Virus record (IMG/VR): IMGVR_UViG_3300036791_001168
Span: 1-40,518 of that record
Direction: 5' to 3' (one strand)
Source: a virus
DNA: 40,518 nucleotides
Under the pieces are notes generated by a model. That model was not told the origin of the DNA, made no database searches, and was given only the letters and a program-made list of their open reading frames with translations. Position numbers and translations under genes: made by a program. Positions within the stretch are counted from its first letter, which is position 1, and each line of letters begins with the position of its first letter. Shown piece after piece: positions 1 to 40,518 of this stretch.

Positions 1-68
1 GGGGCATCATCGACAAGCCGGCCGACAAACCGCCGGATGCCAAGCCGCCGGTAGCTACCCCGAAATAA
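1..68 (+). CDS. 3' end of Gly/Pro-rich repeat protein (second copy of 40392-40459)
   Basis: This is the C-terminal tail, ending KPPVATPK and a TAA at 66-68, of the protein whose complete reading is at 39677-40459. It appears here only because the circular contig is cut with a 127-base overlap. It is not a separate gene. Confidence 0.85.
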   Translation, partial: GIIDKPADKPPDAKPPVATPK

Positions 69-127
69 AGCTTCCCTCTTGGGGGAGGGGAAGGGGGCTG
101 GTGGGTTTCCATCTACCTGCTGGCCCC
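1..127. repeat. Terminal redundancy of a circular contig
   Basis: Bases 1-127 are identical to 40392-40518, by direct reading of both ends. The length equals 127, the usual largest k-mer of short-read assemblers, so this is most simply an assembly overlap of a circular (or circularly permuted) genome rather than a biological direct terminal repeat. The repeat contains the last 22 codons of the Gly/Pro-rich gene, a hairpin-like CTTCCC/GGGAAG element at 71-93 and the start of the leader of the gene at 149. Confidence 0.93.
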
Positions 128-616: not shown

Positions 617-786
617 TGACGATGGGAGAGCACATCCAGTCGAAGACCAACGTGGAGTGCCCTATCTGCGGAGGCCACGGCTGGGTCTGCGAGGCTCACC
701 CGGACAGGCCTTGGGAGAGCGGGAGTGCGCGGGACTGCGGCTGTGGCGCGCCTGGCATGCCCTGTCGCTGCACCGGGATCGAATGA
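613..786 (+). CDS. Small cysteine-rich zinc-finger-like protein
   Basis: 57 aa. It contains CPICGGHGWVC, then a short acidic/Trp stretch (HPDRPW) and CGCGAPGMPCRC, giving at least two CxxC-type pairs that look like metal ligands. The pattern CGGxGWVCExHPDxPW...CGCGAPGxPC is one I recognise from many phage and proteobacterial small proteins of unknown function. The start overlaps the preceding stop, and its own stop overlaps the methyltransferase ATG at 783, so it is translationally coupled on both sides. Function unknown. Confidence 0.75.
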   Translation: MMTMGEHIQSKTNVECPICGGHGWVCEAHPDRPWESGSARDCGCGAPGMPCRCTGIE

Positions 787-2441
787 CCTACGGTTCGCTG
801 TTCACCGGAATAGGGGGCGTGGATCTCGGCCTGGACAGGGCCGGGATGGAGTGCCGGTGGCAGGTAGAGATCGATGACTACTGCGTGAAGGTCCTGAAGA
901 AGCACTGGCCGGATGTAAAACGGTATGGCGACATCACCAAGGTCAACGGAACAGAGCTGGAGCCCGTCGATGTTATCTGCGGCGGCTTCCCCTGCCAGGA
1001 CCTCTCACAGGCCGGGAAGCGAGTCGGCATCGAGGGAACTCGCTCGGGCCTGTGGTTTGAGTACGCCCGTCTGGTTCGGGAACTTCGACCTCGATACGTG
1101 CTCATTGAGAACGTCCCAGGCCTCCTTGTTTTCGACGCAATGCGAAGAGTTGTCGGAGAACTGGCCCGACTCGGGTATGTGGGATGCTGGCGCAGTCTAC
1201 GAGCTTCAGAGTTCGGAGCCAGTCACTTGCGAAAGCGAGTCTTCATTGTGGCCTACCGCGACGGGGCAGGACTCGAAACACGCGACGAACTCGCCGGCCC
1301 AGGAAGCACGGCATCTGGGCAACCTCGTAGTCGAAGCACTGCGCTGGCCTACTGCCCAGACAACGGACGCGGCATCAGCGGCGCGGCACACAACGACGAC
1401 GGGCGTGATGCACTCAGGAACATCACTAACGGACGCGACCCGCATGTGGCCCACGGCACGGTCAGAGGACTCGGAGAGTTGTGGCAACCACCCTGGAGCG
1501 ACGGACTCCCTGACGGGAGCGACGAGGAACTGGCCCACACCGGGATCGCTGGAGGGGGGCGGCGGGAAGAGCACGCACCCGGAGAGCGGCGGGGAGAGCT
1601 TCGCGACGGCGGTGAAGAACTGGCCCACGCCTCAACAGCACGACAAGCAGGGCAGCAAGACTCCAGAGCAGATAGCGGCGATGAGGGAGAAGAACGGCGC
1701 AGGCGTATCGAACCTGAACGAGGTAGCGGAATACTGGCCCACACCAAACGTGCCGAACGGGGGCAGGACAACGAGCACCAGCAACTACGCGGAGGACGGG
1801 AGCAAGCGCCAGATCGAATTGGGAGCGATAGCGGCGATCTGGCGGACGCCGAACGCCAACATGATCGAGCCGAAGAGTTCCGTAGTAAAGCTGGAGGGCC
1901 GGAAGCCGAGCGATCCGCAGGTCGGGCTGGCCGATCAGGTGGACAACTGGCAGACACCGGGAACAGACTCCTTCCGCAGCAGGGGAGGGGACCGCAAGGA
2001 CGAGATGGGCCTGGATCAGCAGGCGCGGATGTTCTGGGGAACACCGCAGGCTCACGAGAGGACCTTCGACCCACGGGATGTGGATCACGGAGTTCAGCTA
2101 GCGAACCAGGTGGACAACTGGAAGACGCCTACTGCGCGGGACTGGAAATCAGAGACGGGAATGGATGCAGCAGACTACAGATACCGTCTCTCGCAGCAGG
2201 TTTACCTGCTTTCGCACCAGGACCCAGTGATCCCCGATGGCCCACCATCCTCAGAGAGCGCCCAGACCTCGCACCGGCGGTTGAATCCCAGATTCGTAGA
2301 GTGGCTGATGGGATTCCCGATCAGTTGGACAGAGCTATGTCCAACCGCACCAAAAGACTCGGCAGACTCGGCAATGCCGTCGTCCCGGACTGCGCGGAGT
2401 GGATCGGCCAAAAGATCCTCGAGTTCGAAGGCCTGAGATGA
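783..2441 (+). CDS. DNA (cytosine-5-)-methyltransferase, Dcm family
   Basis: 552 aa. It would transfer a methyl group from S-adenosylmethionine to C5 of cytosine in DNA, probably protecting phage DNA from host restriction. Motif I FTGIGGVDLG (residues 7-16), motif IV GGFPCQDLS with catalytic Cys71, motif VI ENVPG (109-113), motif VIII LRKRVFIVA (149-157) and motif X LGNAVVP near 529-535 are all present, with RRVADGIP just before it, so the catalytic core is complete in this frame. ATG 783 is chosen because it overlaps the previous stop and starts the conserved core. Residues about 160-500 are odd: low-complexity, Arg/Glu/Gly-rich, with recurring LAHT/LADA/LADT units and poor GC3 (about 53% in a 68-codon hand tally at 1531-1734), where the conserved target-recognition domain should be. 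The +1 frame of the same DNA is better coding sequence there; see the nested gene. Confidence 0.88.
   Translation: MTYGSLFTGIGGVDLGLDRAGMECRWQVEIDDYCVKVLKKHWPDVKRYGDITKVNGTELEPVDVICGGFPCQDLSQAGKRVGIEGTRSGLWFEYARLVRELRPRYVLIENVPGLLVFDAMRRVVGELARLGYVGCWRSLRASEFGASHLRKRVFIVAYRDGAGLETRDELAGPGSTASGQPRSRSTALAYCPDNGRGISGAAHNDDGRDALRNITNGRDPHVAHGTVRGLGELWQPPWSDGLPDGSDEELAHTGIAGGGRREEHAPGERRGELRDGGEELAHASTARQAGQQDSRADSGDEGEERRRRIEPERGSGILAHTKRAERGQDNEHQQLRGGREQAPDRIGSDSGDLADAERQHDRAEEFRSKAGGPEAERSAGRAGRSGGQLADTGNRLLPQQGRGPQGRDGPGSAGADVLGNTAGSREDLRPTGCGSRSSASEPGGQLEDAYCAGLEIRDGNGCSRLQIPSLAAGLPAFAPGPSDPRWPTILRERPDLAPAVESQIRRVADGIPDQLDRAMSNRTKRLGRLGNAVVPDCAEWIGQKILEFEGLR
1057..2436 (+). CDS. Nested out-of-frame gene: W-P-T-P repeat protein overprinting the Dcm gene
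   Basis: The frame one base downstream of the methyltransferase is open from 925 to the TGA at 2434-2436. From about 1057 (TTG; ATGs lie at 925 and 970) it reads a protein of a type I recognise in phage genomes: DLDTCSLRTSQASLF, then ENWPDSGMW, ten W-[PRQKG]-T-[PA] repeats, and C-terminal LNPRFVEWLMGFPISWTEL. In a 68-codon hand tally at 1531-1734 its GC3 is 84% against 53% for the Dcm frame, so codon usage favours this frame in the middle. After about 2330 it becomes Ser/Ala/Lys-rich and the Dcm frame again looks better. The true start is uncertain; a +1 frameshift from the Dcm frame is an alternative to internal initiation. Function unknown, possibly linked to DNA recognition by the methyltransferase. 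Confidence 0.6.
   Translation: MSTPVWFGNFDLDTCSLRTSQASLFSTQCEELSENWPDSGMWDAGAVYELQSSEPVTCESESSLWPTATGQDSKHATNSPAQEARHLGNLVVEALRWPTAQTTDAASAARHTTTTGVMHSGTSLTDATRMWPTARSEDSESCGNHPGATDSLTGATRNWPTPGSLEGGGGKSTHPESGGESFATAVKNWPTPQQHDKQGSKTPEQIAAMREKNGAGVSNLNEVAEYWPTPNVPNGGRTTSTSNYAEDGSKRQIELGAIAAIWRTPNANMIEPKSSVVKLEGRKPSDPQVGLADQVDNWQTPGTDSFRSRGGDRKDEMGLDQQARMFWGTPQAHERTFDPRDVDHGVQLANQVDNWKTPTARDWKSETGMDAADYRYRLSQQVYLLSHQDPVIPDGPPSSESAQTSHRRLNPRFVEWLMGFPISWTELCPTAPKDSADSAMPSSRTARSGSAKRSSSSKA
1249..2135 (+). repeat. Ten degenerate TGGCCnAC-type repeats read as W-P-T-P and L-A-H/D-T
   Basis: A degenerate unit built around TGG-CCC-AC recurs ten times between the first (WPTATG, TGG at 1249) and the last (WKTPTARD, TGG at 2119). 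In the nested frame it gives WPTA, WPTA, WPTA, WPTP, WPTP, WPTP, WRTP, WQTP, WGTP and WKTP; in the methyltransferase frame the same bases give VAY, LAY, VAH, LAHT, LAHA, LAHT, LADA, LADT, LGNT and LEDA. The intervals are irregular, so it is a peptide-level repeat and not a DNA tandem repeat. Confidence 0.7.
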
Positions 2442-8264: not shown

Positions 8265-9506
8265 GTGCCGACAAACAATTTTTCCAACACGAGCTGGGTC
8301 TCGATGGAGGTCTTGCGACTCCTCGTGAACAAGCTTGTGGTCTCCGAATATTTCAACCGGTCCTGGGAGAAAGATTTCAACAAGGAATTCGCCCCGGGCT
8401 CGACCATCCAAATCAAGTTCCCGCAACGCTTCCAGACCGTTGACGGTATGGGCTACGCGCCCCAGGGAATCAACCGCATCACCACCACCGTGGCCCTCGA
8501 TACCTGGATCCAGGTACCTTTCGAGTGGGACGACTACGAGCGAGCGGTCAAGCTGGAACGCTCCGAGGCAGAGCTCCGCGAGAATTACTGGGAGCCTGCC
8601 GGCGCCGCGATCTCGCAGTCGATCGACAGCAAGGCCGCCAACTGGGCGCGCCTCAACGCCTCTAACTTCATCGGACAGCTCGGTACCGACCCGACCACCG
8701 TGCAGGCCTATTACACGGCACGCGCGCTGCTCGAGAAGGAAGCCGCGCCCCCCGGTAAGCGGTGCATGCTGATCTCGACCAACATGATGGTCTCGATCGG
8801 CAGTAACATCACGAACGTATTTCATCCTTCCGATGAGATCACGCGCATGTTCAAGCAGGGCTCGATCGGGCGCCTGGCCGGGTTCGAATTCTTCGAATCG
8901 AACTCTCTTTGGACGCACACCGCAGGGACCTGGGCCGGAGTGGTCAAGGTCATCGGTTCCGGACAGTCTGGCGCCGCCATCGTGATCCAGGGGACCGCGG
9001 GAGACACCATCAACCCCGGCGATAAATTCAGCTTCGCGGCGGTGAACATGACCAACCCGATGACCTACCGCTCGGCCGGCCCTCTGACGCCGCGCGAGTT
9101 CACGTACCCCGGACCCGCGCCGATGGTCCTGACGGGTGGCAACGACACAGTGCCGATTCTTCCGCCACTCTACGGTCCTGGCTCGCAATACCAGAACGTA
9201 GACGCACTCCCTTTGACCAACGCAGCCCTCACGCTGTTCCCGGGCACCACCACCCCGAACGGCAAGAGCGGAACGGTGGGCCTCGGGCTCACGCGGGATG
9301 CCTTCGCACTCGTGGGCGGCAAGCTCTACCTGCCCAAAGCGGTGGAGTCTGCCTCCCAGCAGCAGGACCCCGACTCCGGCATCGCAATCCGCAAAGTAAT
9401 CGCGTGGGATCCGGTCAGGAGCATGCAAGTCAACCGGTACGACTCCCTGATCGGGTTCGGGAATCTCTACCAGCAGAACGGCGCGGTGGCCGTCCTAGGA
9501 GCATAA
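8265..9506 (+). CDS. Major capsid protein, P22 coat (gp5)-like
   Basis: 413 aa from GTG directly abutting the scaffold stop. N-terminal SMEVLRLLVNKLVVSEYFNR, PGSTIQIKFPQRF and the later LERSEAELRENYWEPA fit the P22-coat family (HK97 fold with an inserted domain). An Ig-like insertion region at about residues 215-300 contains SAAIVIQGTAGDTINPGDKF-type sequence as in the P22 I-domain position. The C-terminus KVIAWDPVRSMQVNRYDSLIG is typical of these coat proteins. It would assemble the icosahedral shell with the scaffold. Confidence 0.9.
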   Translation: MPTNNFSNTSWVSMEVLRLLVNKLVVSEYFNRSWEKDFNKEFAPGSTIQIKFPQRFQTVDGMGYAPQGINRITTTVALDTWIQVPFEWDDYERAVKLERSEAELRENYWEPAGAAISQSIDSKAANWARLNASNFIGQLGTDPTTVQAYYTARALLEKEAAPPGKRCMLISTNMMVSIGSNITNVFHPSDEITRMFKQGSIGRLAGFEFFESNSLWTHTAGTWAGVVKVIGSGQSGAAIVIQGTAGDTINPGDKFSFAAVNMTNPMTYRSAGPLTPREFTYPGPAPMVLTGGNDTVPILPPLYGPGSQYQNVDALPLTNAALTLFPGTTTPNGKSGTVGLGLTRDAFALVGGKLYLPKAVESASQQQDPDSGIAIRKVIAWDPVRSMQVNRYDSLIGFGNLYQQNGAVAVLGA

Positions 9507-24800: not shown

Positions 24801-25716
24801 GGAGGACGTCCAGCGTTACCTGCAGGACATGGTACGCAAGCGGCTGGGCGAGGTTCCGGACGACGCGCCCGACAACGTGAAGATGCGGCGCCTTCTGCGC
24901 TACGGCCGCGGGGAATTCAAAGAGCAGCTCGGGATGCCCTATAGCGGAGTGGACTGGTACGGGCCTGACACCGTGGAAGGGGACCGCCTGCTGCGCCAGC
25001 AGCGGCCGGAGCTCGCGGACCCGGACTTCGACACCATCCAGAAGGCCATGAGTGCGGCCATGTCGAACAACTCCAATCCCCAGGAGGAGGCCTTCAACGG
25101 GGCTCGGATCTGGGAGGAGGCCTTCGACAAATGGAAGCGCAACCCGAAAAGCACTCTACAGTTCCCGGCATTCCAGCCCGATGGAAAGACCTCCTGGCCG
25201 GCGCAGGGCGCCGGCTTCCAGATTGCGAAATTGAACCAGATGATCAAGGAGCTCGGGGTTCACGGCGCAGCAGAGTTCCTGCGCGACCCTCAGGTCCCGG
25301 GAAGAAATATTAAGCACTTCGTTCCCAACGCGAAGGAAATTCGGCTGGACGAGCACTTCCCAGGTAGCATTGTGCTGGGTCCGAAAATCGGCGTCTACTT
25401 CAACCAGATCATGAATATCCCGCAGCCGGGCTCGGTGGTGGACGTCTGGATGATGAGGCGCATGGGGCGCCTACTGGGAAACCTGTTCGATACCAACGGC
25501 AAGGAGATCGACGCGCCGCGGACGGAGGGAGAACGCAACCTTTCAATGGACATGGATGCGCGCCTCGGGCGGGAGCACGAGCTCGCCACACGAGACGCGC
25601 AAAGCGTAGGCTGGCATTACGAGCAGGAACTGTACCGCCGGCTGGGACTCAACGTGAAGAGCTTCCGCCGGTCAGACGGAATCCGCAAGTACCTCGACTC
25701 ACTTGGAATTAAGTAA
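21844..25716 (+). CDS. Very large internal virion / ejection protein
   Basis: 1290 aa, the largest gene. A Pro-rich, disordered N-terminus with two NQFGD motifs is followed by a glycine/alanine hydrophobic stretch (residues ~155-205), a long helical region, a second hydrophobic stretch (~655-700), a nearly pure Pro/Gly/Ala linker (~720-775) and a distinct C-terminal region (~800-1290) with SQLSYIDVAPEDVEGL, VVDVWMMRRMGRLLGNLFD and SVGWHYEQELYRRLGL. The last part resembles large polyvalent phage proteins, but no active site can be named. Probably the last protein ejected with the DNA, possibly carrying an enzymatic cargo domain. Its 3' end overlaps the convergent gene by 18 bp. Confidence 0.75.
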   Translation: MPDQQTNQFGDVAVDQPPPNPPQTTNQFGDSPAEAGPLAPIGYRDGMPVYSIDVYNRAVPPQPPVYQGTDAQGKPIVAPPPGPAAAPMPWELMTPSQQRAASPVRLNPRTGLPMTPMLMGDIPIVDAPFTGAKRAIGGVERIGGAENARDVAGGTSDVIRGTLEAATPLLPGAFAGAPLATALTLGTGTALSGGTEFLLNKLGLPKEYSALASDLIGLYGAHKAYEKLQGIGQERATRAATQGPAPAPSPEAAAAEQVIEQGRRYGVRLSAGDVSQSPGLKNVEVAAEKVPGVGMGGFREGQQIEAKAAAGRVTSQLQDALIEAEPSALTDLQDAAEGGDQRARNVLEKMNAAGNDPDRVIQASIGLGDWTTRQRATELYDKVQKLAEDHNLGDVPMNATGKAIGSSLEQLRPAKLPNKEVIGLLAKIKESISPKVDEEGNPLLDDQGSPVGPNNSYSLIRQLHSDLGERIREYYQGNNALIGEKGVGYLERVQNALEDDMRNYAKNSGVSQIVEAGDAADQYYKSARVPYKNGMLAAAATSTEPDQIFQQFIKEGKGDRAQNFYEALDDRGKAAVRYNMVRKAVDDAINPQNGIFSPQKFFTSVDKLDEAYGVFFNAKDKAEIQGFKNLMGHITRAGQYAENPPTGQRIIPYLVGGAIVKGLSAVTAHPVLTGATAGLIAGARGLFTTVKGRDLLLQLSGLKEGTPLMDSVWQRIGKELRPPEKPPEPPPAGGAPPPPPGGGGAAPPGAGAAPAGPGGGGPGAPPAAPAGGGAAAAPEGGEGQASLYERLKAQGDAALDRIRKRGSYTGERANALPIPDMKDMTIWAASRIGQGVVDPAALRKEIVAQFGKLPMSAVREIAGQAHDQELKNVRDYRLGMPLGDIHPLTSETIPLNPEVEPGLSKKKTRLYSGHEQGTESRIWTPEREAAEGPLATSKSPSQLSYIDVAPEDVEGLKAGEKPGEKGRKLMVYSPGQDPERATGLLTEDVQRYLQDMVRKRLGEVPDDAPDNVKMRRLLRYGRGEFKEQLGMPYSGVDWYGPDTVEGDRLLRQQRPELADPDFDTIQKAMSAAMSNNSNPQEEAFNGARIWEEAFDKWKRNPKSTLQFPAFQPDGKTSWPAQGAGFQIAKLNQMIKELGVHGAAEFLRDPQVPGRNIKHFVPNAKEIRLDEHFPGSIVLGPKIGVYFNQIMNIPQPGSVVDVWMMRRMGRLLGNLFDTNGKEIDAPRTEGERNLSMDMDARLGREHELATRDAQSVGWHYEQELYRRLGLNVKSFRRSDGIRKYLDSLGIK

Positions 25717-34745: not shown

Positions 34746-35036
34746 TCATTCCTGGCTCAATAGAGGCCTGCAGCGGTCCTTCCGGGCCCTCCGGGTCTCC
34801 AAGGCCTTGGCAGCCCACTGTGGGTAATCGTGGCGCTTGTGGCACGTACTACAGAGGCCTGCCAGATTGTCATCCGTACGATTCCTTGCATCACCATCCA
34901 GGTGGGCCACCTCAATCCGCCGCGGGATGCGGCCGCACCGCTCGCACCGGCCGCCGCAACGCTTGAGGATCCGCGGCCGAATGACAGTCCGCCAATGGTG
35001 ACCGTACAGGTGCTTCAATTCAGGCGCGATTGGCAT
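34746..35036 (-). CDS. HNH endonuclease
   Basis: 96 aa. CERCG (31-35), IEVAHLDGDARNRTDDNLAG and LCSTCHKRHD provide the C-x2-C, AHxxG, N and C-x2-CH-x2-H elements of an HNH (ββα-metal) nuclease. Small stand-alone HNH proteins near replication genes act in packaging, repair or homing. ATG overlaps the stop of the preceding gene. Confidence 0.85.
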   Translation of the reverse strand: MPIAPELKHLYGHHWRTVIRPRILKRCGGRCERCGRIPRRIEVAHLDGDARNRTDDNLAGLCSTCHKRHDYPQWAAKALETRRARKDRCRPLLSQE

Positions 35037-35260
35037 CAGTTCTCCAGGGGTGGCTCACCCGGTGAGCCAGGGGTCGTAGACTCTACGAGTTCAGGAACTC
35101 GTACAGCGTACGAGGGGTCCAGATCGCGGTGGGACCACCCCTGGCCGTCCTGGTAGCCGTGGCCGGCATACGGATGGTGTTTCCAGTCTTCAGGCGCGTG
35201 GGCGCGCTTATTCGCGCAAGCAGGGCAGGTTTTCAGCGGCACAGTTGAAGCATCTTCCAT
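35036..35260 (-). CDS. Small CxxC hypothetical protein
   Basis: 74 aa from ATG 35260. CPACANKRAHAPEDWKHHPY followed by AGHGYQDGQGW, a pattern I know from phage small proteins. The last 20 codons contain four consecutive palindromes. It overlaps the upstream replication gene by 53 bp. Function unknown. Confidence 0.65.
   Translation of the reverse strand: MEDASTVPLKTCPACANKRAHAPEDWKHHPYAGHGYQDGQGWSHRDLDPSYAVRVPELVESTTPGSPGEPPLEN
35051..35114. repeat. Run of four consecutive perfect palindromes
   Basis: TGGCTCACC-C-GGTGAGCCA (35051-35069), TCGTAGA-C-TCTACGA (35074-35088), TACGAGTTC-AG-GAACTCGTA (35084-35103) and CTCGTAC-AGC-GTACGAG (35098-35114), with arms of 9, 7, 9 and 7 bp. AGGGGT hexamers occur at 35046, 35069 and 35113. 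They lie in the coding sequence of the small CxxC gene, next to the replication gene. Confidence 0.75.
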
Positions 35261-36194
35261 CTACACCACCATTTTCAAGCGAAGTCCCGCATTTAAAGCA
35301 TCTCGGGACTTCAGATTGCATCGGGGGACCGGTGTTGGTCTGCAGAAACTCCTTCGTGAGTTCCGGAAGGGCGCCCGGGTGGCGGACGCGGTTGAGTTTT
35401 GGTACCAACCATCTCAGGAATTCTTGGGATCGGGAACCGAGGGACCGTAGGGCAGTAGCGGATTGCTTGGGGGTGGGTACGCCATCTTTGCCGGCAGCCT
35501 CCCAGGTCGCGACGTGCTGGGAGTGGAAGTCCGGGGGCTCCGGTTCCGGGTTCGTCGTCGTCGCTTCCTTGGAGGGTAAAGACGACGACGAATCCCCCTT
35601 AAAAGTCTTAGAGTCTTCGTCAATAAGGATAGGCCCGCGCGGAGTCCGCAATGCTTCGAACTCTTTGACCGCTGCTGACCGGACTTTTATAGCCTCAAAG
35701 TACGCTACACGGCGGACTTCAAAATCCTCAAAGTCCGCTGCGTAGCGGACTTTCCACCAGTCGCGAAACTCGAGGCGAAAATTAGGCGAATGAAAGTCCG
35801 GTACAGTGCGGACTTTCTGGGGGTGAATCCCTGAGTCCGCTGGGAAGAGTGCACGTGCAGTGCCGAGTCTAAGATACCCAAGTGCGCGCCAATATGCAAC
35901 TATTTCGCTGATTCTCTGTTTTCCTGTTCCTATATCGGCCGCGGCGTCCTTCTGGCCCAGCGGGGCCTTGCCCCCCTTCTCCCGAACCGCAAAGTCAGAA
36001 TAATTACCCCAGGATTGTCTGTAGAGCCACAGAAGGAATCGCCATTCAAGAGGGACGCCTTCATCAACGATTAAGGCGTCGATTGCGGGATTAAAGCATG
36101 CCGTATATGGGAGCCTCTTCCCGCCGCTATCCACACGCTTGGAGAAGAAGGCCGCGGCCAAGTTGATCCATTCGCCGGCAGGGGCGGCACTCAC
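35208..36194 (-). CDS. Replication initiator / replisome-organiser-like protein
   Basis: 328 aa from GTG overlapping the previous stop (GTGA). An N-terminal winged-helix-like region (VPLEWRFLLWLYRQSWGNYS, KDAAADIGTGKQRISEIVAYW) is followed by a disordered centre and a C-terminal region with CFKCGTSLENGGVDGRCFNC, a zinc-ribbon-like tail. This layout fits lambda O/replisome-organiser proteins. The coding sequence carries nine AGTCCG copies (35527-35840), the iteron position expected for a lambda-type origin. The repeated KVR/FEVR tripeptides in the protein arise from these iterons. Confidence 0.72.
   Translation of the reverse strand: MSAAPAGEWINLAAAFFSKRVDSGGKRLPYTACFNPAIDALIVDEGVPLEWRFLLWLYRQSWGNYSDFAVREKGGKAPLGQKDAAADIGTGKQRISEIVAYWRALGYLRLGTARALFPADSGIHPQKVRTVPDFHSPNFRLEFRDWWKVRYAADFEDFEVRRVAYFEAIKVRSAAVKEFEALRTPRGPILIDEDSKTFKGDSSSSLPSKEATTTNPEPEPPDFHSQHVATWEAAGKDGVPTPKQSATALRSLGSRSQEFLRWLVPKLNRVRHPGALPELTKEFLQTNTGPPMQSEVPRCFKCGTSLENGGVDGRCFNCAAENLPCLRE
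35527..35840. other. Candidate replication origin: AGTCCG iterons inside the initiator gene
   Basis: AGTCCG or its complement CGGACT occurs at 35528, 35643, 35680, 35713, 35732, 35746, 35795, 35809 and 35834. Two pairs form strong dyads: AAAGTCCGCT / AGCGGACTTT with a 4-base gap (35730-35753) and GAAAGTCCG / CGGACTTTC with an 8-base gap (35792-35817). Iterons inside an initiator gene mark the origin in lambdoid phages. Confidence 0.6.
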
Positions 36195-36553
36195 TGGATG
36201 CCCCCTTCCGGGGGGGCAATAGTATTAACTAATTCCAAGAAACTCGTTCGGGCTTTGAGGAGGGATGGCTCTGCCTCTGTTTCAAAGAGATGGCGATGTT
36301 TTCGATGATGTTTCCGAATCCACCGGAGACGCTCCCGGCGTTCTGCTAATGTGCAATTTGAAGGGATGTCGGCGCGGTAGAAGCGGACTAGCTCCGTCAG
36401 GTACCGCCGCAACACAACGCTAGACGGTGATTTACCCTCGATCCACTCGCCCAACAGGATGTCATCCACCTTGGGATCCGGCGGCCAACCTTCAGGCACA
36501 GAATCGTCTGGTTGTGGTACAGTGGTCCTCGCGGACCCGTCCGGTCGTTTCAT
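36191..36553 (-). CDS. Hypothetical protein upstream of the initiator
   Basis: 120 aa from ATG 36553 with GGAAGGAAG upstream. Polar, Pro-rich N-terminus, then helical VVLRRYLTELVRFYRADIPS and WIRKHHRKHRHLFETE. First gene of the minus replication operon, overlapping the initiator by GTGA. No family recognised. Confidence 0.6.
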   Translation of the reverse strand: MKRPDGSARTTVPQPDDSVPEGWPPDPKVDDILLGEWIEGKSPSSVVLRRYLTELVRFYRADIPSNCTLAERRERLRWIRKHHRKHRHLFETEAEPSLLKARTSFLELVNTIAPPEGGIQ

Positions 36554-37088
36554 TTTGCGATGCTTCCTTCCGGCCGGGTCAAAATTCAGGCGTCGATGCT
36601 GACAACATCGGCGCCTTTCCTTTTGCAGGAAGGCCCAGCCAATTACCCCCCACAGCATATCACGATGCCAAAACGTGTATTCCCTTTCACGTTTTTGAGG
36701 GTAGGCATACAGACTGCGAAGGGATCCAGGAATCCCCCTTGAACGTTTGTATGGGGAAATGTTATGGTTATTCTGCATTGCGGTTAACGGCTGCCCCCTC
36801 ACTCGGGGTGGTTATTGCAAAATTTCCGGCTGCTATCCGGAGAGTTTGCGCCCTGTGTTAAAGCGCCGGAGAAAGCCTTTCGGATGAGGGAAGGCGTGCC
36901 CATTTGGCGATGGACCACTCCACACGGTGCCCTACTCCGTGGGGTTTTCCCGGCGTTCGTGTTGTAAGTCACTTAGTCAGTTACATTCGGACTTCGATCT
37001 CCAGCGAAATGATATACCCCTGCGCGCGAAATGTTCAAGCGCCATTTCGCCCACAGTAATTCGCAGATGTGTTGATTGGAGTCTCGGA
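36554..37088. promoter_or_regulatory. Divergent control region between replication and late operons
   Basis: Apart from one possible 42-codon gene (36759-36887), this holds dyads: AAAACGTG (36670-36677) and CACGTTTT (36688-36695) with a 10-base gap, and GCGAAATG at 37004-37011 and 37026-37033 plus the inverse copy CATTTCGC at 37043-37050. TTGAAC (36740-36745) and TTATGG, 17 bp apart, are a weak plus promoter. Likely the main early/late switch region. Confidence 0.45.
36759..36887 (+). CDS. Possible small cysteine-rich peptide
   Basis: 42 aa: MLWLFCIAVNGCPLTRGGYC, then SGCYPESLRPVLKRRRKPFG. A hydrophobic start and four cysteines with a basic tail. Composition is unusual for a chance reading, but the start has GGGGA only one base upstream and no family is recognised. 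Confidence 0.35.
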   Translation: MLWLFCIAVNGCPLTRGGYCKISGCYPESLRPVLKRRRKPFG

Positions 37089-38405: not shown

Positions 38406-39651
38406 ATTCCCGGATAAGCTGCAATTCCTCTTCGAAAAAGCGCCCTACAAAGTCGCCTACGGCGGCCGCGGCGCGACGAAGAGCTGGGGATTCGCAAGGG
38501 CCCTGTTGATCCGCGGCACGCAAGAGAAGCTTCGCATCCTGTGCGCGCGGGAGACGCAGAAGAGCATCCGCGATTCGGTGCACCAGCTCCTGCAGACGCA
38601 ATTGACGGACCTCGGCCTCGACTCCTTCTACCGCGTCGAGAAGGCCGCAATCTACGGCCTCAACGGCACCACAATCCTCTTCGCCGGCCTGAAGCACAAC
38701 GTGGACAATCTGAAATCCATGGAGGCCATCAACATCTGCTGGGTGGAGGAAGCGCAAGGCGTTTCGAAAACCTCTTGGGACAAATTGATTCCCACGCTGT
38801 ACCGCATCCCCGGCTGCGAACTGTGGGTCTCCTTCAATCCGGACCTCGAGAGCGACAACACCTATCAGCGTTTCGTGGTCGATCCGCCGGAAGGCGCGGT
38901 GGTGGTCAAGCTGACCTACCGCGACAACCCCTGGTTCCCCGAAGGCCTGCGCCGGGAGATGGAGCAGGCGCGGCGCCGCAACGCAGACGAGTACGCGCAC
39001 ATCTGGGAGGGGACCTGCATCAACACCCTCGCCAACGCGATCTACGCGAATGAACTGCGCCAGGTCGATATCGAGGGCAGGGTCCGCCGGGTCCCGTATG
39101 ACCCGACCAGGCCGGTGGACACCGCATGGGATCTCGGCTACGGCGACATGGTCTCGATCTGGATGTTCCAGGCGTTCCCGATGGAGTACCGCGTCATCGA
39201 TTATGAGGAAGGCCAAAGAGAAGCGATCCACCACTACATTGCGGAGCTGCAAAAGCGCGGCTACATGTGGGGCACGGACTATCTGCCGTGGGACGGAGGC
39301 CTGAAGGCCTTGGGGACCGGCAAGTCGATCGAGGAGCTGATGCGCGCCGCCGGCCGCCGCGTGAAGGTGGCCACCCGACTGCCAATCCTCGACGGCATCA
39401 ATGCGGTTCGAACGATATTTCCCTTGTGTTATTTCGACGAGGGGAAATGCGCCGAAGGGATTCGGCACCTCCGCTGTTACCGGTACGGCGAACTGAAGTC
39501 CTTGGAGGGGCCGACTCGTGAGCCCCTCCATGACCTGCATAGCCACGCAAGTGACAGTTTTCGCTGTATGGCAGTGAGCATCAGGCAACCCCAGAAAGAG
39601 CGTGAACGGGAGCAGCAGAGGCAGAAGCAGTACGTCAGTCCGTGGAGTTGA
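38371..39651 (+). CDS. Terminase large subunit (PBSX/Terminase_3 type)
   Basis: 426 aa from GTG. ATPase: Walker A GGRGATKS (residues 31-38), Walker B NICWVEEA (121-128) with coupling motif SFNPD (154-158). Nuclease domain begins VDTAWDLGYGD with Asp250/Asp254. The enzyme translocates DNA into the procapsid and cuts concatemers. Length is normal for this type. GTG overlaps the small subunit; the C-terminus is Gln/Arg-rich. Confidence 0.93.
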   Translation: MTLPQILPTRAKFPDKLQFLFEKAPYKVAYGGRGATKSWGFARALLIRGTQEKLRILCARETQKSIRDSVHQLLQTQLTDLGLDSFYRVEKAAIYGLNGTTILFAGLKHNVDNLKSMEAINICWVEEAQGVSKTSWDKLIPTLYRIPGCELWVSFNPDLESDNTYQRFVVDPPEGAVVVKLTYRDNPWFPEGLRREMEQARRRNADEYAHIWEGTCINTLANAIYANELRQVDIEGRVRRVPYDPTRPVDTAWDLGYGDMVSIWMFQAFPMEYRVIDYEEGQREAIHHYIAELQKRGYMWGTDYLPWDGGLKALGTGKSIEELMRAAGRRVKVATRLPILDGINAVRTIFPLCYFDEGKCAEGIRHLRCYRYGELKSLEGPTREPLHDLHSHASDSFRCMAVSIRQPQKEREREQQRQKQYVSPWS

Positions 39652-39676
39652 TCAATCCCAACAAAAGGAAAAAACG

Positions 39677-40459
39677 ATGTCGACCGGTTTCTTCGCGTAT
39701 GTTCAGATTCTTCAAGGTCCGCCTCCGGTAATTGGTGGCGGGCCAGCAAATCCTCCCGTTTATCCCGGTGGAGGGCCGGCCTATCCGCCGGGCCTGCATC
39801 CCGGCGGCGGGCCTATGCCCGGTGGTCCCGTTGACCCCGGATATGGGCAGGGGCATCCGTTGCCTCCGCACCTCGGTGGTGGCCCGGCATATCCGCCGGC
39901 CTATCCCGGTGGTGGGCCTGTTTATCCGCCGGGATTGCATCCCGGTGGTGGGCCTATGCCCGGGGGTCCCGTCGATCCCGGCTACGGACAGGGGCATCCG
40001 ATACCGCCGGGCATCTGGGGCGGCGGCTCGCCTCCTCACGTAGGCGGCGGGCCGGCTATCCCGCCCTACTACCCTGGCGGCCCCGTTTACCCGCCCGGCC
40101 TGCATCCCGGTGGTGGTCCCGTCTATCCCGGTGGGCCGGTCGATCCCGGCTGGGGACAGGGCCATCCGACGCCTCCGGTAGTTGGCGGCGGCCCCGCTTA
40201 TCCTCCCGGTCTCCATCCTGGCGGCGGCCCGGTTGAGCCTCCCACGCTTCCGCCGGGATCGCAGTTGCCGCCCGATCAGCTCTGGCCGCCAACGGATCCG
40301 CCTAAGCCGGGTGACCCGCCCAAGCCTCCGGTGGTAGTGCCCCCGAACAAGTTGGCCGTGCTCCTCTGGGTGCTCGGCATGGGCTACAAGTGGGGCATCA
40401 TCGACAAGCCGGCCGACAAACCGCCGGATGCCAAGCCGCCGGTAGCTACCCCGAAATAA
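39677..40459 (+). CDS. Gly/Pro-rich repeat protein
   Basis: 260 aa from ATG 39677, with AAAGGA seven bases upstream. After a short start (MSTGFFAYVQILQG) nearly all is repeats of the type YPPGLHPGGGPMPGGPVDPG with YGQGHP, about three large units, then a Pro-rich tail and LAVLLWVLGMGYKWGII, a short hydrophobic segment. Collagen-like or silk-like extended fold, likely on the virion. The gene follows the terminase and its 3' end crosses the contig junction. Unknown function. Confidence 0.75.
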   Translation: MSTGFFAYVQILQGPPPVIGGGPANPPVYPGGGPAYPPGLHPGGGPMPGGPVDPGYGQGHPLPPHLGGGPAYPPAYPGGGPVYPPGLHPGGGPMPGGPVDPGYGQGHPIPPGIWGGGSPPHVGGGPAIPPYYPGGPVYPPGLHPGGGPVYPGGPVDPGWGQGHPTPPVVGGGPAYPPGLHPGGGPVEPPTLPPGSQLPPDQLWPPTDPPKPGDPPKPPVVVPPNKLAVLLWVLGMGYKWGIIDKPADKPPDAKPPVATPK

Positions 40460-40518
40460 AGCTTCCCTCTTGGGGGAGGGGAAGGGGGCTGGTGGGTTTC
40501 CATCTACCTGCTGGCCCC

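Follow-up and report, generated by a model that had tools for sequence, protein, structure and literature searches.

A candidate lambda-type replication origin within the initiator gene of an uncultured phage

Does an uncultured phage replicate from an origin that lies, as in lambda, inside the gene of its own initiator protein? The question is raised by IMG/VR virus record IMGVR_UViG_3300036791_001168, whose 40518 bases are the entire virus assembly and the window analysed here (phage W), and within it by the gene of an O-like replication initiator. An earlier note on this DNA had reported nine copies of AGTCCG or CGGACT within 314 bp of that gene and proposed that they mark an origin. The nine copies are indeed present at 35528-35839, against about 0.19 expected per 314 bp, and the proposed location is well backed by related phages, by a lambda control and by a layout of array, AT tract and inverted repeat. 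Because the region has the same anatomy as the lambda origin, our best reading is a candidate lambda-type replication origin inside its own initiator gene, to which we assign a probability of roughly 0.85.

The AGTCCG hexamer is only the half-site of a 24-bp palindromic unit. The array consists of four directly repeated 24-bp imperfect palindromes, AAAGTCCGC-N6-GCGGACTTT, in the open reading frame (ORF) 35208-36194(-). On the coding (minus) strand the iterons start at gene nucleotides (nt) 378, 441, 474 and 507 (0-based), i.e. at spacings of 63, 33 and 33 bp, so that the array spans nt 378-530 of the 987-nt initiator gene and lies mid-gene. The four strong units account for six of the nine hexamers and a weak fifth unit for one; the remaining two are isolated (35528 and 35834). 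The dyads of 9-10 bp described in the earlier note have either 10-bp arms separated by 4 bp or 9-bp arms separated by 8 bp. The gene and its iterons are as follows.

35208..36194, minus strand: O-like replication initiator gene, 328 amino acids, named from the O-like matches of relatives, with a predicted N-terminal winged-helix domain and the origin candidate in its middle
35793..35816, minus strand: iteron 1, AAAGTCCGCACTGTACCGGACTTT (coding strand), profile score 30.4
35730..35753, minus strand: iteron 2, AAAGTCCGCTACGCAGCGGACTTT, perfect 10-bp arms, profile score 35.1
35697..35720, minus strand: iteron 3, GAAGTCCGCCGTGTAGCGTACTTT, profile score 27.1
35664..35687, minus strand: iteron 4, AAAGTCCGGTCAGCAGCGGTCAAA, degenerate 3' half, profile score 22.3
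35642..35663, minus strand: possible fifth iteron, weak, offset by 23 bp from iteron 4, score 11.9

Hexamer density alone would not single out this array. The whole-window count that had been suggested as a check gives 34 copies against 24.17 expected, nine of them in the array, and by best count per 314 bp AGTCCG ranks second of 2061 hexamer classes (9 vs 10 for GCCGCC). The GCCGCC maximum, at 40019, lies within ORF 39602-40459 (+), which is made of glycine/proline-rich repeats and is the source of the densest hexamers in the window. The longer 24-bp unit, however, is unique. A symmetric palindromic profile built from the four units was scanned over the circular genome and 40 simulated genomes; besides the four iterons and the weak fifth, the best score in the genome is 9.3, and the simulated genomes reach at most 16.3. 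The weak fifth stays below that maximum, and its score is 8.9 when a 22-bp profile built from the four iterons is used. A search of viral_contigs for the exact W palindrome pattern found none.

Relatives came from three sources, namely terminase relatives at 74-79%, relatives of a conserved small gene and relatives of the initiator, and the comparison comprises the O-like gene of W and ten others (L003, L004, L005, L006, L007, L008, L009, L095, L096 and L105). There are eight TerL relatives at 74-79%; L002 was left out since its sequence ends before the initiator position. L097-L104 and L106-L108 were left out as fragments or repeats of contigs already included, L010-L014 were searched for the W initiator only, and a further 80 TerL loci of viral_contigs (about 48-55% identity) stand outside the set. 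At E 0.01, blastp divides the 11 initiators into five groups (W/L004/L105; L005/L008; L003/L007/L009; L006; L095/L096), the sole match between groups being a C-terminal one of L004 with L008. The W initiator shares 34% identity with the O-like protein of L105 and 32% with that of L004, and an initiator alignment search recovered both again. The closest families are PHROG 345, 391 and 678 (replication initiation O-like) and 270 (replication initiation protein), which relatives at the same gene position match weakly to moderately: L004, L006, L007 and L009 have O-like matches, L008 matches 'replication initiation protein', and the L004 protein hits phrog_345 at 0.0034 and phrog_270 at 1.1e-4. 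It is because relatives match these families that the W protein is labelled O-like.

Mid-gene palindromes occur in every initiator group, each with its own half-site and a differing sequence, for example CAGTTGCCAGTACTGGCAACTG (L005), CGAGCGAATTTAATTTCGCTCG (L006), AAGAGGTTGCGCGCTACCTCTT (L007) and GAAAGGTTTGTACAGACCTTTG (L095). The arrays were compared with codon shuffles, in which synonymous codons are permuted within the gene and the protein is kept unchanged. The fit of the palindromic motif is reached by at most 2/100 shuffles in 9 of the 11 O-like genes. Outside the gene, a motif scoring as high as the weakest instance is absent from 10/11 loci and present once in L105. Whole-locus scans with a profile of the central array, made for ten genes (all but L009), placed the best outside match at least 10 bits under the weakest array instance in 8/10; the exceptions are L004 (15.8 outside vs 17.9) and L105 (22.2 vs 17.6). 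A lone good iteron copy is found at position 8819 of the L105 locus, between two long ORFs and 3.2 kb beyond the point where the initiator gene ends.

On the 3' side of the W array two further elements follow.

35592..35631, minus strand: AT-richer tract (62.5% AT), a candidate site of unwinding, separated from the array by 10 nt
35551..35592, minus strand: inverted repeat beyond the AT tract, with an 18-nt loop between perfect 12-bp arms at 35581-35592 and 35551-35562; score 12, reached in 0/400 shuffles

The W tract is near the gene maximum (two windows are higher). In 6/11 genes (L004, L105, L008, L007, L003 tied, and L009), the 40-mer with the highest AT content is located no more than 120 nt to the 3' side of the array; L006 has one higher window, and L005, L095 and L096 depart from this pattern. 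In a test devised after the W and L007 repeats had been seen, and with array ends placed by hand, an inverted repeat within 220 nt 3' of the array was reached by at most 16/400 codon shuffles in 8/11 genes (W and 7/10 relatives), the failures being L095 (24/400), L005 (78/400) and L105 (377/400). By the same 4% standard, 1/12 control regions passed in the 220 nt 5' of the array (L096) and 0/10 tested in the adjoining 220 nt farther 3' (lowest L095, 10/200). The longest arms noted are in L007:4023-5210(-), a perfect 20-bp inverted repeat at gene nt 690-709 and 800-819 (0/400 shuffles); the same place holds 13 bp in L003 and 13 with a mismatch in L009, and in these three genes the repeat lies just past the AT tract with a loop of 81-90 nt and is reached by 0-2/400 shuffles. 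In W, L004, L008, L095 and L096 the arms are wholly or largely trinucleotide runs, which slippage can favour.

Lambda carries four iterons in the middle of gene O, each an 18-19-bp imperfect inverted repeat binding an O dimer, and the A+T-rich 40 bp adjoining them open (PMC5043065, PMC6022878 and PMC7466680). The earlier note took inverted pairs to be unusual and a departure from lambda, which is wrong: in those papers and in J02459 the lambda iterons are themselves inverted repeats, and the W dyads are directly repeated. As a positive control, our script recovered the four iterons annotated in J02459 (with unit lengths of 20 and 22, not 18). The highest-AT 40-mer of lambda O starts at nt 435, directly after the array. 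Further on the 3' side, at nt 476-503, there is an inverted repeat that 9/400 codon shuffles reach; lambda has a 28-bp repeat of this kind beyond its AT tract.

The layout of W resembles that of lambda in that an array of four directly repeated imperfect palindromes lies within the initiator gene, past the N-terminal domain, with a candidate AT-richer tract on its 3' side and an inverted repeat further on. The two differ in the units, which in W measure 24 bp with 4-8-bp gaps compared with 18-19 bp in lambda, and in the spacing (63/33/33 vs 19-25). Moreover, the iteron sequence of W is unrelated and its AT tract modest, no P-like loader is recognised among the ORFs scanned, and three relatives of W bear an extra copy near the start codon. 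Besides the lambda origin and O protein, the closest known systems are the Stx phage origins P27 and 933W. Iteron plasmids of the R6K, P1 and RK2 types likewise have their initiator sites arrayed next to AT-rich DNA, but these arrays usually lie outside the initiator gene.

How might such an origin work? The N-terminal domain of the W initiator was modelled with a mean predicted local distance difference test score (pLDDT) of 62.5 (core blocks 64-84). For this model Foldseek gave no match with E at or below 0.001, either in PDB or among viral structures, and upon realignment the best structural matches are winged-helix regulators (NtcA, Z 9.0 over 80 residues, root-mean-square deviation 3.0). 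With moderate confidence, the model points to a winged-helix DNA-binding domain. Through it the initiator would bind each 24-bp palindrome, probably as a dimer, and four bound dimers at spacings of 63, 33 and 33 bp would build a nucleoprotein complex. This complex may strain and open the AT-richer 3' tract, where the replicative helicase would be loaded. For the inverted repeat past the tract, the third recurring element, it would be a guess to propose a boundary function or, on the opened strand, a hairpin.

Several results weigh against a lambda-type origin. The W initiator has no direct family-library match (none of PHROG 345, 391, 678 and 270 at E up to 1), so that the earlier description of a lambda-O-like gene stands through the relatives but not through the protein itself. 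Nor did the W initiator match PDB sequences or phage records, and close relatives are lacking in viral_contigs, genome_contigs and phage records. Its full-length fold is unreliable (mean pLDDT 43.7), and neither a helicase loader (lambda P) nor a helicase was recognised in the subset of W ORFs scanned. The composition of the AT tract is equalled by 126/300 codon shuffles. Among the relatives, the motif fit is not significant in L005 (42/100 shuffles) and L009 (12/100); L005 has two copies only, both near-perfect palindromes, and fares better when palindromes are counted (8/300 shuffles). With 40 shuffles each, none reaches the fit score in 8/12 O genes (lambda included), but the same is true of 3/37 other long ORFs, among them the repetitive ORF 39602-40459; the shuffle test is therefore informative but not clean. 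GC skew, also suggested earlier as a check, does not discriminate the origin position. Its cumulative minimum at 34960 is 0.7 kb from the array, yet the skew follows gene direction and lends little weight. As a proof of the origin it was rejected, the detrended maximum at 25661 coinciding with a gene-direction switch and the minimum lying inside a minus-strand block.

The alternative that survives best, though we consider it improbable, is that the palindromes are operators of the protein, serving autoregulation or as a transcription roadblock, and not an origin. It draws on an extra near-perfect iteron located 27-33 nt downstream of the likely start codon in L004 (nt 33), L006 (nt 30) and L008 (nt 129, with an inferred start at nt 102), which belong to three different initiator groups, and on the single copy beyond the initiator gene of L105. 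These start-codon copies suggest autoregulation, with a possible autorepression site, in the three relatives. The profile scan found no such copy near the start codon of the W initiator, however, and the arrays are mid-gene, multi-copy and, in most relatives, followed by an AT tract and an inverted repeat as in lambda. Operator and origin roles could also coexist.

Much the same DNA pattern might arise as a by-product of a protein repeat, an 11-residue motif (KVRxxxDF and alike, every 33 bp) in a helical linker. Indeed, WKV..DF, EV and KV recur at 11-residue spacing in W, L004 and L105, coinciding with the 33-bp DNA period. As the whole explanation this is very unlikely, for permuting synonymous codons destroys the array: nine hexamers were retained in 0/5000 permutations of the W gene (mean 2.28) and in at least 1/2000 of an earlier run (maximum 9), and the palindromic-motif fit of 96.5 compares with at most 74.7 in 100 shuffles. 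Furthermore, the half-site AAGTC stands at 33-bp spacing in homologous codons of W, L004 and L105, whereas its frame at the first site differs, giving KVR in W and KSG or KSP in L004/L105. With one half-site translated in more than one frame, it is the DNA and not the peptide that has been kept, and the DNA of the W array is constrained beyond its protein coding. The 33-bp iteron spacing doubles as code for the 11-residue protein repeat, which is a new detail. An RNA-level role, with hairpins in the initiator mRNA acting in attenuation or antisense control, is the least credible alternative: each unit and the 3' inverted repeat could fold in the transcript, but hairpins need no shared sequence, and one directly repeated sequence per initiator group would rather suit a DNA-binding dimer.

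A lambda-type origin is an already known kind of element; new are the double coding of 33 bp and 11 residues and the start-codon copies in three relatives. The findings carry the origin plan of lambda over to a group of uncultured phages, for whose initiators the phage collection contained no detectable homologue (2/11 proteins tested). They also show that codon-shuffle tests within the initiator gene can reveal the plan even where sequences share no similarity, and they provide several natural pairs of initiator and site for studying the evolution of specificity. The inverted repeat beyond the AT tract emerges as a third element of interest, in lambda too; a literature search returned nothing on the W phage group or on this repeat in lambda. 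More speculatively, and with considerable doubt, the observations can be joined into one picture. The origin in this phage group would be a self-contained cassette that can be swapped, initiator and code word passing jointly among five or more dissimilar initiator groups, usually in the form of array, AT tract and inverted repeat. In the W group the 33-bp unit would carry two codes, placing a DNA site at intervals of about three helical turns and specifying a helical repeat of 11 residues, and in three groups a second site located 27-33 nt downstream of the start codon would couple initiation to autorepression by looping or handcuffing.

The record carries a 127-bp direct terminal repeat (window 1-127 = 40392-40518) and is therefore probably a full genome, obtained by reading through a molecule that was circular or permuted. 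Family matches to terminase, integrase, portal and tail fibre among the scanned ORFs identify W, on homology, as a tailed phage that is probably temperate. In genome_contigs, neither the TerL alignment nor the initiator search gave relatives; with TerL lacking relatives there, no host was assigned. One further feature adjoins the initiator gene.

36191..36802, minus strand: ORF upstream of the initiator gene, which it overlaps by 4 bp

The two probably belong to the same operon. A family-library scan gave nothing above the cut-off for this ORF, and the ORF at 35036-35260, downstream of the initiator gene, had no family match either. Next comes, still shortly downstream of the initiator gene, an HNH endonuclease-like gene (34746-35036 (-), phrog_1571 at 2.4e-14), and ORF 657-2441 (+) matches DNA methyltransferases (phrog_363, 2e-70).
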